20,672 nucleotides of DNA from the IMG/VR virus record IMGVR_UViG_3300031841_003465, positions 1 to 20,672 of that record, one strand, 5' to 3'. This document shows, piece by piece, positions 2,623-13,116 of this stretch. The notes under the pieces were generated by a model, which did not search any database, had not been told where the DNA came from, and worked only from the letters and a program-made list of their open reading frames with translations. This DNA is from a virus. The translations under genes were made by a program, and so were the position numbers. Each line of letters starts with the position of its first letter. The first letter of the stretch is position 1.

Positions 2623-4706
2623 GCACCCCTTCCGCTGGGGTATACTCCGCGCAGCAGAAATACCAGAGTCGGAAGATTGAGGAAGCCTCAACCGTCTCTG
2701 GTATTCCAAAGCCTAAAGACCCGACTAGGCGAGCCGCGTGTGAGAGAGACCTGTCTCTGTTTCTGCGAACGTACTTCCCCCATTCAACGGGGTTGAAGCC
2801 GTTCAGCAGTGACCACGAGATGGCCATCCTCAGAATGCAATATGCAATCATTGAGGGTGGTGGTACGGTTCTTACGTGTTTCCCCCGGGGGTTTGGTAAG
2901 ACAACGATCTCTGAGAACACCGCGATTTGGGCATCCCTGTATGGGCATAAGAAGTTTATCCCGATTATCGGGGCGGACAAAGGTGCCGCTACAGACACGA
3001 TTGCCAGTCTGAAGTTTGAACTCACAGAGAATGACCTGATTGCTGAGGACTTCCCTGAAGTCGTTGTGCCCTTCAAGCATCTCGACAATAAGTCCCAGCG
3101 GTGTGCAACCCAGAAGCTCGGCGGCGAGCTCACTTACGTTAAGTGGTCCGCCGAGGAGCTAGGGTTTGCGTGGGTCAAGGGTGATGATGGCCAGTACCTG
3201 AATAACAGCGGGGCGATGTTCCGCTGTTTGGGTATCACCGGTCGTATCCGTGGTATGAGTGTGAAGACGCCGGACGGAGAGAAGAAGCGTCCGGACTTCT
3301 TCATTCTCGACGACCCTCAGACTGACGAATCGGCAATGAGTCCGACGCAGTGTGCAAAGCGGATGTCAATCTATCAGAAGTCAGTGCTCCGCCTCGGTGG
3401 ACACAACAAGCTTCTGAGTGGTGTGATCAACGCGACCGTGATTGAGCCGGATGATATGGTTGACCAACTTCTGAGTCAGGAGAAGCACCCCGAGGTTGAG
3501 GGTGTGCGGATCCCGATGCTGAAGACGATGTCTGACAACCATGAAGATCTGTGGATGGACAGTTATGCTGAGTTGAGACGAACGTACAATCCAGAGGATC
3601 CTGGGGACCGCCGGAGGGCAATCAAAGACGCTAACGAGTTCTATGACCGAAACCGGGAGGAGATGGACAAGGGTGCTGAGGCGACGTGGGAGCATTGCTA
3701 CGCGGAACTCGACGGCGAGGTATCTGCCATTCAGCATGCATACAACATCCTGATCGATGATGGTCCATACGTATTCGCTTCCGAGTGTCAGAATGAGCCT
3801 GTGTCTCGGAATCCAATGGGTATGGATTTCATGACGCCGGAGGAGATCTGCGAGCATCGGGTAGGACGGCACAAGAAGCTACCGAACAAAGTGGATGTGC
3901 TGGCGTTCCACATCGACGTTCAGAAGCGTGCGCTGTACTACTGCATCAGCGGGGTCTCAGAGGACTTCTCCATGTACCCGATTGAGTATGGGATGTACCC
4001 GGAGCAGAAGGGTGGCAAACTCGGGTATGCGAATGTCCGGTCTACCCTGCAACGCCGGTACAAGGGAATGAGCGACGAGATGGTCATCGAACGTGGTGTC
4101 GGTGATTTGGTCAAGATGCTGAAGACGAAGCGATTCGCGAGAGAGGACGGGGTTGTATTGACGGCAGATGTGGGTCTGGTCGACGGGGGTTACCAGTCGG
4201 ACGCGGTCCACAATGGCGTGCTTCAATCCGGTCAGACTGGCGTCTACGTCGCCTACGGTCGTGGTGTGAAGGCTGCGGATACTCCAATGATGCTGCTGAA
4301 GCGGGCGTCGGGGGAGAAGCGTAGCAAGGATATGTTTATTCCGTGGAGGATGATGGCCGATGCGAACCGAAGAGGAACCCGGTATGTGCTGTTCTGTTCT
4401 AACTCAGTTAAGACGTTCGTGCATCGTCGAATCCGAACGGATATCGGCGAGAAGGGGTCCTTCCTCCTGCCAGCAGGCATCCATAAGGAATTTGCCGCAC
4501 ACATCAGCGGAAGTGAATCACCCACGGAAACTGAAGGACCATACGGAAAACTGATTGAGTGGGCACCCGTTCCGGGCCGCCCCGACAACCACCTATTTGA
4601 CTGTCTGGTGGGATCCGCCGTTGCGGCGTCCATCACCGGTCGTGTTCGGTTCGGGGAGCCGATTGAAAAACCCGTCAAGAACCAGAAGAAGGTCTCGTAC
4701 TTATGA
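2619..4706 (+). CDS. terL: Terminase large subunit (DNA-packaging ATPase/nuclease)
   Basis: This is the motor that pumps phage DNA into the prohead and cuts it. The 695-residue protein has an N-terminal ATPase with a Walker A-type loop FPRGFGKTT (residues 88-96) and Walker B FFILDD (227-232) whose second acidic residue fits the catalytic carboxylate. The C-terminal nuclease domain shows acidic positions expected for an RNase H-like fold: HIDVQ (D433), ADVGLVDGGY (D517/D522) and PDNHLFDCLVG (D661). The length is near that of lambda gpA-type terminases. It starts at a GTG overlapping the preceding stop. No ATG occurs before residue 68, and starting there would leave only 20 residues ahead of the Walker A loop. 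It overlaps the next gene by four bases (ATGA). The gpW-portal-protease order downstream also points to the lambda-type family. Confidence 0.93.
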   Translation: MSTPSAGVYSAQQKYQSRKIEEASTVSGIPKPKDPTRRAACERDLSLFLRTYFPHSTGLKPFSSDHEMAILRMQYAIIEGGGTVLTCFPRGFGKTTISENTAIWASLYGHKKFIPIIGADKGAATDTIASLKFELTENDLIAEDFPEVVVPFKHLDNKSQRCATQKLGGELTYVKWSAEELGFAWVKGDDGQYLNNSGAMFRCLGITGRIRGMSVKTPDGEKKRPDFFILDDPQTDESAMSPTQCAKRMSIYQKSVLRLGGHNKLLSGVINATVIEPDDMVDQLLSQEKHPEVEGVRIPMLKTMSDNHEDLWMDSYAELRRTYNPEDPGDRRRAIKDANEFYDRNREEMDKGAEATWEHCYAELDGEVSAIQHAYNILIDDGPYVFASECQNEPVSRNPMGMDFMTPEEICEHRVGRHKKLPNKVDVLAFHIDVQKRALYYCISGVSEDFSMYPIEYGMYPEQKGGKLGYANVRSTLQRRYKGMSDEMVIERGVGDLVKMLKTKRFAREDGVVLTADVGLVDGGYQSDAVHNGVLQSGQTGVYVAYGRGVKAADTPMMLLKRASGEKRSKDMFIPWRMMADANRRGTRYVLFCSNSVKTFVHRRIRTDIGEKGSFLLPAGIHKEFAAHISGSESPTETEGPYGKLIEWAPVPGRPDNHLFDCLVGSAVAASITGRVRFGEPIEKPVKNQKKVSYL

Positions 4707-5008
4707 GCAAGAAGAAAGCCACCAAGAAGAAAGCCACCAAGAAGAAAGCCACCAAGAAGAAAGCTGTAAAAGAGGCAGTACCCTGCGTCAGCACGGTCCC
4801 GATCCACTGCCCCAGGTGCGGATGTTCAGACAGATCCCGCAAAACAGGCACGATTCGGAGGACTCTGAGCGGGTCGACATCTGACGGATTTGACTACACG
4901 GAGGTGGCGTGGAGCTACGTAACTTGCTTGGGGTGCGAGAAGAATTACAGAATTATCGAGTATTTGGCCCCTACATCCCGCGACTGCGGGTTGAAGTCTG
5001 ACCAATAG
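4703..5008 (+). CDS. Zinc-ribbon protein with lysine-repeat N-terminus
   Basis: 101 residues. The N-terminus is a perfect pentapeptide repeat (KKKAT three times, then KKKAV) encoded by a 15-bp tandem repeat. The rest is a compact domain with two CxxC knuckles, CPRC (about residues 34-37) and CLGC (about 74-77), about 36 residues apart, as in a zinc ribbon. Small zinc-ribbon proteins between terminase and portal are common in tailed phages, and their role is not established. The polylysine arm suggests binding to DNA or another polyanion, which is inference. The ATG overlaps the terminase stop (ATGA). Confidence 0.7.
   Translation: MSKKKATKKKATKKKATKKKAVKEAVPCVSTVPIHCPRCGCSDRSRKTGTIRRTLSGSTSDGFDYTEVAWSYVTCLGCEKNYRIIEYLAPTSRDCGLKSDQ
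4709..4768 (+). repeat. 15-bp tandem repeat encoding KKKAT
   Basis: Three exact copies of AAGAAGAAAGCCACC (4709-4753) and a fourth that diverges after ten or so bases. It is in frame with the zinc-ribbon gene, so loss or gain of a unit changes only the length of the lysine arm. Confidence 0.9.
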
Positions 5009-8749: not shown

Positions 8750-9190
8750 ATGTCTGACGATCTTTCTCCTCACGAACGTGCAGTCCGCACAGGTCTCAAC
8801 ACAGCACGCCGCTACGGTGGTGTGCCTGTGACCTACTCTCGCGGAGCCACTACACTCACGATCAACAATGCTCTCCAGTCTACGACTGTTAAGGCGAACA
8901 TTGAGGTCGGAGGTGAGGAGCAAGTCGTTGAGACTCAGCTTTGGTTGATTGCCGTAAACGATCTCGCCAGCCTCGGTACTCCCGAGGTTGGCGATATCAT
9001 TGCCCGGAACATTCAGGGCACTGTGTACTCGTTTACAGTGGAGACGTTGGACTTCGGCGATGTCGCCTGGGATTGGACCGATACCGGTAAGACTCAGTTC
9101 GCCATCAACACCCGTAAGGACGGGGCTTCTGCCTACGAGGTATCGGAACCGAACGGATTCGATCTTCAGGGCAACGAGTTGCGTTACTAA
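8750..9190 (+). CDS. Head-completion protein, lambda gpFII-like
   Basis: 146 residues. The motif PVTYSRGATTLTINNALQSTTVKA near residues 25-50, followed by beta-strand-rich sequence (VVETQLWLIAVNDLASLG, then VGDIIARNIQGTVYSFTV), resembles small beta-barrel head-tail joiners of the gpFII type, which cap the portal/gpW tunnel and receive the tail. The position immediately downstream of the capsid gene and before a gp10-like gene matches lambda order. Two bases follow the capsid stop, and its own stop overlaps the next start (TAATG). The family call rests on motif memory and synteny. Confidence 0.65.
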   Translation: MSDDLSPHERAVRTGLNTARRYGGVPVTYSRGATTLTINNALQSTTVKANIEVGGEEQVVETQLWLIAVNDLASLGTPEVGDIIARNIQGTVYSFTVETLDFGDVAWDWTDTGKTQFAINTRKDGASAYEVSEPNGFDLQGNELRY

Positions 9191-9833: not shown

Positions 9834-10247
9834 ATGGCACAGATCAAAGGGAAAGGCACCATCTTTCAGGTAGATGTTGCAACTGTCCTAACAGCCGTCG
9901 CACAGCTCACTGATGTTTCAATGAGCGGGGCTGAAATCGAAACATTCGATGCGACAACTCTGGACCAGTCTGGTGCGGGTAAGACCCTCGGCCAAACTGG
10001 TTACTCTGAGTCTGGTGAACTGAGCATCTCTGGCTTCTTCGATCCAGACAATGCACAGCAGGCTCAGCTGCTGGCGTACATTGAAACGCCTGCGGAATTC
10101 GACGCTGCGATCACTTTCACAGACGCCACTCCTGCAACATGGAACTTTGTCTGTGGTGGATGTTCATTCGACGTAACAGTATCCATGAACGATGCTGTTA
10201 AATTCTCAAGCACGATGCCACTGTCTGGTATCTCAACTGACTGGTAG
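9834..10247 (+). CDS. Major tail tube protein
   Basis: 137 residues, beta-rich with alternating hydrophobic residues (AQIKGKGTIFQVDVA, then LTDVSMSGAEIETFDATTLD, then SGELSISGFFDPDNAQQAQL). The opening G-T-x-F-x-V pattern, the IETFDATTLDQSG segment and the C-terminal VSMNDAVKFSSTMPLSG strands are typical of siphovirus tube proteins, which stack as hexameric rings to build the tail. It is shorter than lambda gpV (about 246) because the extra C-terminal Ig domain is absent. The position before the chaperone and tape-measure genes agrees. Confidence 0.8.
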   Translation: MAQIKGKGTIFQVDVATVLTAVAQLTDVSMSGAEIETFDATTLDQSGAGKTLGQTGYSESGELSISGFFDPDNAQQAQLLAYIETPAEFDAAITFTDATPATWNFVCGGCSFDVTVSMNDAVKFSSTMPLSGISTDW

Positions 10248-10256
10248 GAGTAACCT

Positions 10257-10568
10257 ATGAAAGCCCGACTGCTTCATACCGTTCCTGCCTCCCCAAAAGC
10301 TGACCCTGCGTTGGTTATTGAGGAGAACGGAATCAAGTACATTCCTGAAGGGACGATCATCGATCACCCTGATGCGTACCGACTGGTACATGGTGGACAT
10401 GCTGAGGCGGCAGACGATGAGTGTGCCGCCGCAGCCGCCGAGCTCAATCCTAAATCTAAGGGACTGATGCGTAAGGCACATGACCAACTCATGCAACAGC
10501 ACAAGGACGCACAGGAAGAACTGCTGAACGAAATCTACGAAGAAGAACTGGAGGAAGGTGATGAGTAG
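10257..10568 (+). CDS. Small acidic tail-module protein of unknown function
   Basis: 103 residues with a clear AGGAG site at 10246-10250. The N-terminal half contains GIKYIPEGTIIDHPDAYRLVHGGHAEAADDECAAA in consecutive pieces, which reads like a small domain with an alanine-rich helix. The C-terminal 35 residues form an acidic helix (QEELLNEIYEEELEEGDE). It sits between tail tube and the G-like chaperone and overlaps the latter by eight bases. I do not recognise the function. An assembly factor or tail accessory role is inferred from position. Confidence 0.6.
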   Translation: MKARLLHTVPASPKADPALVIEENGIKYIPEGTIIDHPDAYRLVHGGHAEAADDECAAAAAELNPKSKGLMRKAHDQLMQQHKDAQEELLNEIYEEELEEGDE

Positions 10569-10944
10569 TTTATCTCGCGAAGCCTTCCTCCGACCTGCTA
10601 AGGTAAACGTTGTAGAGGTTCCCGTGCCGGAGTTGGGAGGCTCTGTCTACGTCAAGGGCATGACAGCCAAAGACCGATCACGTTTCGAGACTCAGTTCCA
10701 GTTGAGCTCTGGTAAGAGCAACACGCGAAAGCTGAAGGAGATCCGAGAGCGTCTGGTTGTTGCATGTCTGTGCGACGAAGAAGGCGTCCTGTTGCTGCAA
10801 GACTCAGACGTAGATGCCGTAGGTGCTCAGCCTGCTGCCGTCGTCGAACGCATTGTTGATGCTGCCCAGAAGGTCTGTGGCATGAGCAACAATGATGTTG
10901 AGGGTCTGGCAAAAAACTCCGAAGAGACCCTCGCCGACTCTTAG
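10561..10944 (+). CDS. Tail assembly chaperone, lambda gpG-like
   Basis: 127 residues from the ATG at 10561, chosen over the in-frame GTG at 10558 because the GGAGG at 10550-10554 is six bases from the ATG. The opening LSREAFLRPAKVNVVEVPVPELGG and VYVKGMTAKDRSRFE match the N-terminal pattern of G-type chaperones, which coat the tape-measure protein and recruit tube subunits. Eight codons before the stop is an A AAA AAC slippery site in phase, giving a longer G-T form. The gene precedes the tape measure, as expected. Confidence 0.8.
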   Translation: MSSLSREAFLRPAKVNVVEVPVPELGGSVYVKGMTAKDRSRFETQFQLSSGKSNTRKLKEIRERLVVACLCDEEGVLLLQDSDVDAVGAQPAAVVERIVDAAQKVCGMSNNDVEGLAKNSEETLADS

Positions 10945-11225
10945 CGTTCCGTCTCGCACGTATGACTGGTTCACTCGATGTCGATGCTGTTCTGGATTCA
11001 ATGACTCCAGAGCAGTTCGACGAGTGGCAGGCCTACGATCTGGTAGAGCCTCTGATGCACTCAGAGCGAGTGTTGGCTCTCCTGACCGTAATGGTTAACC
11101 AGTTCATGGGTGGGGACTACGACTCAATTGCTGACGCGGTCCATCCCTGGGATGTCCAGGATGGACGTAAAATGACAGCAGCAGACTTTAAGAAACAGGT
11201 GGGTGGTCATGGCAAGCATGAATGA
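10561..11225 (+). CDS. G-T frameshift fusion tail chaperone (join 10561-10917, 10917-11225)
   Basis: A -1 slip at 10911-10917 would continue translation for 102 more codons, giving about 221 residues. The joined sequence reads LAKK then LRRDPRRLLAFRLARM and GSLDVDAVLDSMTPEQFDEW, closely matching T-type chaperone domains, in which an arginine/leucine-rich lead-in precedes M-x-x-E-x-x-x-W-x-A-Y-x-x-x-E-P. The T part has no ribosome-binding site before its first ATG at 10962, and the 15 codons upstream in that frame belong to the conserved lead-in, so a separate gene is unlikely. The fusion end overlaps the tape-measure start, as T and H adjoin in lambda. Confidence 0.82.
10911..10917 (+). promoter_or_regulatory. 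Programmed -1 ribosomal frameshift site
   Basis: The heptamer A AAA AAC lies in the codon phase required for tandem slippage (gcA AAA AAC). Zero frame ends at a TAG at 10942-10944, while the -1 frame stays open to 11225. Weak candidate stems follow, AAGAG 10922-10926 with CTCTT 10938-10942 or GAGAC 10924-10928 with GTCTC 10951-10955. Neither is compelling as a stimulator. Confidence 0.8.
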
Positions 11226-13116
11226 TCTGGTAGTCAGCATCGGTGCTGATATTGCCAATCTCCGCAAAGACATGGGGAAGATGGAACGTACCGTCTCCCA
11301 GTCCAGCGGGCGTATGGGCAAGATCTTCGGGGCAGCGTTCAAGTTGAGTAACTTGACGAACGCGGCGCGCGGTATCAAAGCTATCTTCGACACGCTGTAC
11401 CGATCGATATCCGGCCCAATCATGCTCTTCGCGCAGTTCGACGAGACGATGCGGTTCGTGAAAGCCCGCAGTGGTGCGACCGCTGAACAACTCAAAGCAT
11501 TGACGGAGCAGGCCAGCGACCTCGGACGGGCGACCTCCTTCACACGGGGTGAAGTGGCTGAAGGTATGAAGGCTCTTGCCACCGTCGGTGTGGGGGCGGA
11601 TGAGATTCAGAAGATCACTCCCGGGATGCTCAGTCTTGCCAAAGCGACGGGGACGGATCTGCCCTTGGCTGCCCAGACTGCTTCGGTGTTATTGAAGCAG
11701 TTCAACTTAAAGGGTAGGGATACTGGCCACGTTATGGATGTTATGACGTTCGCGGCCAACAACAGTCAATTGACCGTGGAGAAGTTGGCGGAGTCGTTCC
11801 GTATCTTCGCACCTTCCGCCAAGAAGTTCCAAACCAGCATCGAGGATGCTACGGCTGCCGCTATGGTCCTGTCAAATAAAGGGGTCGCCGCGTCGACTAT
11901 TGGTACTGGGTTACGGCGTATCCTCGCCACCACAGCCACTGAGGCGGAGGAGCTCAAGAAGGTCTTTGGTGTATCATTCATCGATCCTAAAACCAAGGAG
12001 TTTGTTGGCCTAGCTGAGGCGATGCGGAGGATGGATACCCAGATGAATAAGATGGGTAAGAACCAGACCGAACGTGCGAACATGATGCGTGAAGCGTTCG
12101 AGCTGTTGGGCATGAATACCGGAATTATCCTTACGGATGCGTCAGACAAATTGAAAGATTTCACCGACCAGATGAAGGGAACCGAAATCGATGGCCTCGC
12201 TGAACGTTCGCGAAAGTTCATCGAGGGAGGCATGATGGGTGCAATCAAGCGTGTTGAATCTGCGTGGGATGATTTCAAGATGAACATCGTCGCAGGACTG
12301 GAAGAGCCTCTACTCGACATCTTCAAACAGGTTACTTCATGGATCAAATACCTGTCGTCGTTCGTTGGTGACTTCACAGAGCCCATCAAGGATTTCATCA
12401 ACTGGGTTGGTGATAAGATTCGTATCCTGCAGGAGTCTTCCACTTGGTCCGAGGGTTTTAAAAACCTCGCCGCGTCCTTTGCGGATGAAATTATTATGGT
12501 CAGGGAAGGTCTGATGATTTTGGTCAAAGATCTGGGGGAGGCATTTGCTAATGCTATGATGGGTGTCATGACCGGCCCTCGCCCCGAAAAAGCCATGGCC
12601 CATGTGTTGAAGGCGAGCGGCGTAACATCGGGAGCAAGTACGCTCATAGAGATGACATCCGATGTAGTTCGCGGTCCCGAGGAGGGGAAGACGTGGGATG
12701 ACTACGTAAATGATATGAAAAAGAGGAAGAAAGACCTAGAGGACGCCGCAGAGGGACGAAGGCGTCAGCGCGAAGCATTCATCAAGCGGCAAGAGGAAGA
12801 GCAGCGTATCAAAGCTGCGGCCAAACTGGCACAGCAGGCCAACCGGGAAGCCGCACGTAAAGCCGCATTTGGGACTATGGCTGACCCAACCGCGAAGAAG
12901 AAAGAGGTCGCACCTTCAGAGGTACACGGCTTCGGTGGTGGTGCCGGCGAGCAACTCGGATCCGCTGCGGCATACAGGAAGATCTTTGATTACTTCACCA
13001 GTCAGAAGAAGAACAAAGCGGATCAGGAACGAAACAAGATCCTGAAACAGATCGAAGCAAACACGAAGGCCTTCGGGGGTGATGACCTCATCGCGGGGTT
13101 TGAGGGGGAAATATAG
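11209..13116 (+). CDS. Tail tape measure protein
   Basis: 635 residues. The start is taken at the ATG at 11209 (AGGTGGG upstream); GTG 11203 and ATG 11218 are alternatives. Residues about 85-290 hold the TP901-type core: RSGATAEQLKALTEQASDLG, RATSFTRGEVAEGMKALATV, LSLAKATGTDLPLAAQTASV and the NNSQLTVEKLAESF and NKGVAASTIGTGLRRIL segments. The C-terminal third is helical and charged with an E/K/R-rich coiled coil (about 505-560). Tape-measure proteins set tail length and are ejected with the DNA. At about 1.5 angstrom per residue this predicts a tail near 95 nm, which is an estimate from the family rule. No peptidase domain is visible. Confidence 0.85.
   Translation: MASMNDLVVSIGADIANLRKDMGKMERTVSQSSGRMGKIFGAAFKLSNLTNAARGIKAIFDTLYRSISGPIMLFAQFDETMRFVKARSGATAEQLKALTEQASDLGRATSFTRGEVAEGMKALATVGVGADEIQKITPGMLSLAKATGTDLPLAAQTASVLLKQFNLKGRDTGHVMDVMTFAANNSQLTVEKLAESFRIFAPSAKKFQTSIEDATAAAMVLSNKGVAASTIGTGLRRILATTATEAEELKKVFGVSFIDPKTKEFVGLAEAMRRMDTQMNKMGKNQTERANMMREAFELLGMNTGIILTDASDKLKDFTDQMKGTEIDGLAERSRKFIEGGMMGAIKRVESAWDDFKMNIVAGLEEPLLDIFKQVTSWIKYLSSFVGDFTEPIKDFINWVGDKIRILQESSTWSEGFKNLAASFADEIIMVREGLMILVKDLGEAFANAMMGVMTGPRPEKAMAHVLKASGVTSGASTLIEMTSDVVRGPEEGKTWDDYVNDMKKRKKDLEDAAEGRRRQREAFIKRQEEEQRIKAAAKLAQQANREAARKAAFGTMADPTAKKKEVAPSEVHGFGGGAGEQLGSAAAYRKIFDYFTSQKKNKADQERNKILKQIEANTKAFGGDDLIAGFEGEI

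Follow-up and report, generated by a model that had tools for sequence, protein, structure and literature searches.

Gene organization at the G/T locus

The 20,672 bases analysed here (the window) form an IMG/VR virus record, in which two overlapping reading frames, referred to as G and T, lie between the genes for the tail tube and tape measure proteins (Table 1). The gene order of tube protein, G, T and tape measure protein is that of phage lambda, with one small gene between the tube gene and G. The tape measure gene starts at 11203 or shortly after. Elsewhere in the window, a long open frame upstream of the terminase (61-1848) carried numerous near-identical repeats of the DFDPTTQTVTTDSASRTASQADVSALATAASISALN type, and a KKATKKKATKKKATKKKA repeat was seen at 4703-4760, the start of a 101-aa open frame.

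Table 1. Coordinates of the features at the G/T locus
Feature	Position	Strand	Remarks
Tail tube (major tail) protein	9834..10247	+	PF16461 lambda TTP, E 7.8e-5, below cut-off; PHROG 158 major tail protein, E 3.7e-11
Small gene, 103 aa	10257-10568		Between tail tube gene and G; without family match
Shine-Dalgarno of G start, CTGGAGGA	10548..10555	+	-9.3 kcal/mol with anti-SD; 5 nt before ATG 10561
G-like tail assembly chaperone, zero-frame short product, 127 aa	10561..10944	+	PHROG 344; 2OB9 fold match
Predicted GT fusion, 119 + 102 = 221 aa	10561..11225	+	-1 frameshift; joined annotation in Dubu and phiSASD1
Slippery heptamer A AAA AAC	10911..10917	+	Tandem -1 phase; equivalent in-phase heptamers in relatives
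-1 frame T-like extension, 102 aa after shift	10917..11225	+	Open frame; PHROG 337; PF06223 in relatives; pN/pS 0.40-0.42
Zero-frame stop TAG of short product	10942..10944	+	From sequence
ATG a gene caller would choose as independent T start	10962..10964	+	No SD; not conserved, e.g. in L008, L017, L021
Tape measure protein, next gene	11203..13116	+	PF10145, E 5.1e-34; start overlaps T end

The zero-frame G protein matched the PHROG 344 tail assembly chaperone family with an E-value of 2.6e-28, and Phage_TAC_13 was matched by 10 of 29 relatives. The AlphaFold model of G had a mean pLDDT of 87 and was confident across most of residues 1-110; in residues 119-127, the zero-frame tail after the heptamer, the pLDDT was below 50. 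The best solved structure for this model was the HK97 tail assembly chaperone 2OB9 (Foldseek E 9.9e-4; Z 8.8 and rmsd 5.3 over 101 residues). A fold like that of this chaperone is predicted for the short protein, although the sequence identity is only 16%.

Inspection of the sequence in the frame of ATG 10561 gave the reading GCA AAA AAC at the heptamer, with eight sense codons between the heptamer and the zero-frame TAG. In a frame scan, the -1 frame had no stop codon between 10902 and 11222, and its stop was at 11223-11225. The heptamer was the only in-phase X XXY YYZ (Y = A/T) within the G gene, and when the codons of the window's G gene were shuffled, some in-phase heptamer arose in the final 45 nt with a probability of 0.014. 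The heptamer, its tandem-slippage phase and its distance from the stop thus all agree with what an earlier note on this DNA had claimed.

The same note had described a T-like domain that is open in the -1 frame, and this description was borne out through the relatives. The T segment of the window itself matched the PHROG 337 tail protein family (E 4.5e-5) from residue 7, ahead of the ATG at residue 16. Its match to PF06223 (Phage_tail_T; E 0.033, 15.1 bits) was below the gathering cut-off of 25.9, and the same family was matched by 21 of the 27 aligned relatives of the segment, the best with an E-value of 3e-18. A tblastn search of phages with the window's T alone found no relative. The AlphaFold model of T had a mean pLDDT of 75, and its first helix spanned residues 5-17.

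Conservation of the slippery site and selection on the two frames

Relatives were taken from two viral-contig scans (44 loci, given L numbers) and from 20 phage records obtained by tblastn, eight of which were read; a scan of genome contigs with the G alignment yielded no relative. Heptamers were counted in the last 45 nt of the gene in 43 distinct sequences, the window included, and the expectation was obtained by codon shuffling within each gene. An in-phase slippery heptamer was present near the gene end in 40 of the 43 sequences compared with 1.22 expected, a count to which not every one of the 43 genes contributes independently and in which the Jflix2 heptamer (G GGT TTC, 40 nt before the stop) is possibly a chance one. 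The letters of the heptamer differed (A AAA AAC, G GGA AAC, G GGA AAG or C CCT TTN), and the phase was constant. Among the near relatives, A AAA AAC was found in L001-L004 and G GGA AAC in L005, L006, L008, L017 and L021, with both phase and stop distance unchanged; near relatives with G proteins 92%, 66% and 55% identical carried one or the other of these two sites at the same stop distance. A more distant group of relatives carried C CCT TTC or its TTA or TTT variants. Because the letters change and the phase is retained, the pattern is hard to explain except by selection for slippage.

We also looked for the outcome that the earlier note had named as contrary to its proposal, namely homologues that lack a slippery site and join the two domains differently. 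The strict heptamer was absent from three of the 43 sequences (L035, Rhodococcus phage REQ1 and Thermobifida phage P1312), and in all three T still lay in the -1 frame. In L035, its absence reflects a variant site or else a difference in the sequence. Just upstream of its zero-frame stop at 2894, L035 reads NPSDG, and its kin read NPFDG.

The ratio pN/pS was calculated for eight relatives from a gap-free alignment around the site, together with bootstrap ranges. In the zero frame, the ratio was 0.45 before the heptamer and 1.05 from the heptamer to the stop, whereas in the -1 frame it was 1.42 before the heptamer, 0.40 from the heptamer to the stop, 0.42 from the stop to ATG 10962 and 0.41 after this ATG. 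In this alignment, purifying selection therefore leaves the zero frame at the heptamer and acts on the -1 frame from there on; the switch lies before ATG 10962, not at it. At the level of sequence comparison, a programmed -1 frameshift is very strongly supported.

Alternative explanations for the T frame

T could be a separate gene that is translated from ATG 10962, with ribosomes reinitiating 17 nt downstream of the G stop and no fusion made. Much of what is conserved in the frame does lie downstream of ATG 10962, and T is deposited as a gene of its own for Psychrobacter phage Psymv2 and Acinetobacter phage AbIPP1. However, purifying selection on the -1 frame was already found in the 15 codons ahead of this ATG, the ATG is not conserved, and the -1 segment of AbIPP1 is without any Met, as is that of L021 before residue 100. 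The first predicted helix of T begins before the ATG, so a start there would remove part of it. The ATG also has no Shine-Dalgarno sequence (0 kcal/mol of anti-SD pairing, compared with -9.3 kcal/mol at ATG 10561), and the earlier claim that a separate T start lacks a ribosome-binding site was therefore upheld. The conservation of in-phase heptamers likewise speaks against independent translation. We conclude that ATG 10962 is unlikely to be the main start of T, and a separate T gene with no fusion is very improbable.

A change of frame by the RNA polymerase rather than the ribosome would be conceivable from the six consecutive A residues in the window. In the same place, however, relatives have G GGA AAC or C CCT TTC, with runs of three only, a pattern that fits tandem tRNA slippage and does not fit slippage of the polymerase; we regard this explanation as even less probable than a separate T gene. 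A single assembled record cannot by itself exclude a sequencing error or a broken gene, but L001 and L002-L004, from other metagenome assemblies, have the same frame layout, as do more distant relatives whose heptamer letters differ, which leaves an artefact with a negligible probability, the lowest of the three. Ribosomal slippage on A AAA AAC is the explanation that we retain.

RNA structures around the slippery site

The earlier note had described the downstream stems next to the heptamer as weak, and our folding results agree: the 60 nt directly after the heptamer in the window folded more weakly than its shuffles (z +1.3), and the mean z of the same region across 32 sequences was -0.19 under synonymous shuffling, which is at chance. 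A Shine-Dalgarno-like upstream stimulator (GTTGAGGG, 6 nt before the heptamer) was considered and rejected, since its pairing was not above that of synonymous-codon shuffles in the window (p 0.58). The corresponding p-values were 0.105 for the 32 sequences, 0.45 for the set with A or G heptamers and 0.05 for the set with C heptamers. A stem AGAC/GUCU shared by near relatives at about +8 nt was also rejected; its register shifts between sequences. An Rfam search gave no match. The question of a stimulator had been left open in the earlier note; as far as sequence can show, neither downstream folding nor the SD-like test supports an adjacent one.

In the relatives with C CCT TTN (the L023-L043 group), a strong GGAGGG was often located about 12 nt upstream of the heptamer, at a marginal p of 0.05 against synonymous shuffling. 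This hints at most at an SD-type stimulator in those relatives.

A hairpin within the T coding region, at 10980-11021, begins 62 nt after the slippery site, which is too far for a usual stimulator. Its z-score under synonymous shuffling was -4.7 in the window and -3.7 in the closest relative, L002, where one compensatory pair and a single U-G to U-A change preserve it. L017 and L019 had a different strong hairpin at this place, and L005, L006, L008 and L020 had none at this position. About a dozen segments of the record are as strong as this hairpin, and it is improbable that it acts at a distance on frameshifting or on translation of the tape measure protein. Ranked by z-score, the top hairpin of the window (-6.4, with a 13-bp stem) was located at 8941-9005, in the head-tail joining gene (8750-9190).

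Comparison with known G/GT systems

The lambda heptamer is G GGA AAG, and that of the window is A AAA AAC. In other respects the locus resembles lambda G/GT in its location between the tail tube and tape measure genes, its short chaperone with a predicted T fusion in the -1 frame and its tandem-slippage heptamer near the end of G, although the sequence similarity of the window's T to the lambda T family is weak. Many relatives of lambda use the same device. For lambda G/GT itself, the -1 frameshift has been described (Levin 1993; Xu 2004, 2013, 2014; as reviewed in PMC5009743). The predicted frameshift of the window is a further member of this kind, the device itself being already known.

Homologous G proteins occur in the Streptomyces phages Dubu (genes 13/14; 40% identity) and phiSASD1 (genes 35/35.1; 34% identity), which are among the nearest known counterparts. 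Both have an in-phase heptamer, G GGA AAC, but their zero-frame stop follows directly after it and not eight codons later as in the window. Psymv2 and AbIPP1 have an in-phase A AAA AAC and T in the -1 frame, as the window does. The earlier note was right that automatic annotation can overlook the fusion, as in these two phages, which were deposited as two separate genes with no fusion annotated. In Dubu and phiSASD1 the -1 fusion is joined in RefSeq, and in Jflix2 G and T are joined in GenBank.

Proposed synthesis of the GT fusion

Taken together, the locus very probably encodes a lambda-type G/GT pair of tail assembly chaperones, with GT made by ribosomal -1 frameshifting on A AAA AAC; heptamer, phase, fused domain and family all agree with the frameshifted G-T fusion that had been proposed for this DNA. 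The computed results cover heptamer, phase, conservation, -1 frame selection, family and fold; the shift itself, its rate and the binding partners are inferred, as follows. The majority of ribosomes would translate 10561-10944 into the short chaperone. On a small fraction, the tRNAs in the P and A sites, paired to AAA and AAC (10912-10917), would slip back by one base, and these ribosomes would resume with CTC at 10917 and terminate at 11223-11225, giving a fusion of 221 aa that carries the T domain at its C terminus. In tandem slippage, AAC has already been decoded by the A-site tRNA before the slip, so the expected junction is LAKN-LRRDP; the LAKK-LRRDP junction given earlier requires a shift before the A site is decoded. 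If the proteins act as in lambda, the G domain shared by both products may coat the tape measure protein encoded by the next gene, and the T domain may recruit the tail tube protein. In lambda, binding of the G domain to the tape measure protein and of the T domain to the tail tube protein is established (PMC5009743).

Both A AAA AAC and G GGA AAC have a low efficiency in E. coli, yet they are very likely used by insertion sequences (PMC4066793); the efficiency in the phage's own host, with its own tRNAs, may differ. Against the fusion stand this low efficiency of A AAA AAC, with no adjacent stimulator supported, the sub-threshold PF06223 score of the window's T and the three relatives that lack a strict heptamer. 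The G:GT ratio of lambda is about 30:1 (PMC5009743). By this analogy, a weak heptamer without a stimulator would suit a low fusion fraction in this phage.

The predicted fusion corrects the gene map of this phage and of related environmental phages, in which it would otherwise be overlooked. Furthermore, the relatives form a natural series of swapped heptamers (A AAA AAC, G GGA AAC and C CCT TTC) with the phase kept, which could serve to test how heptamer strength is tuned to the ratio of short to long protein.
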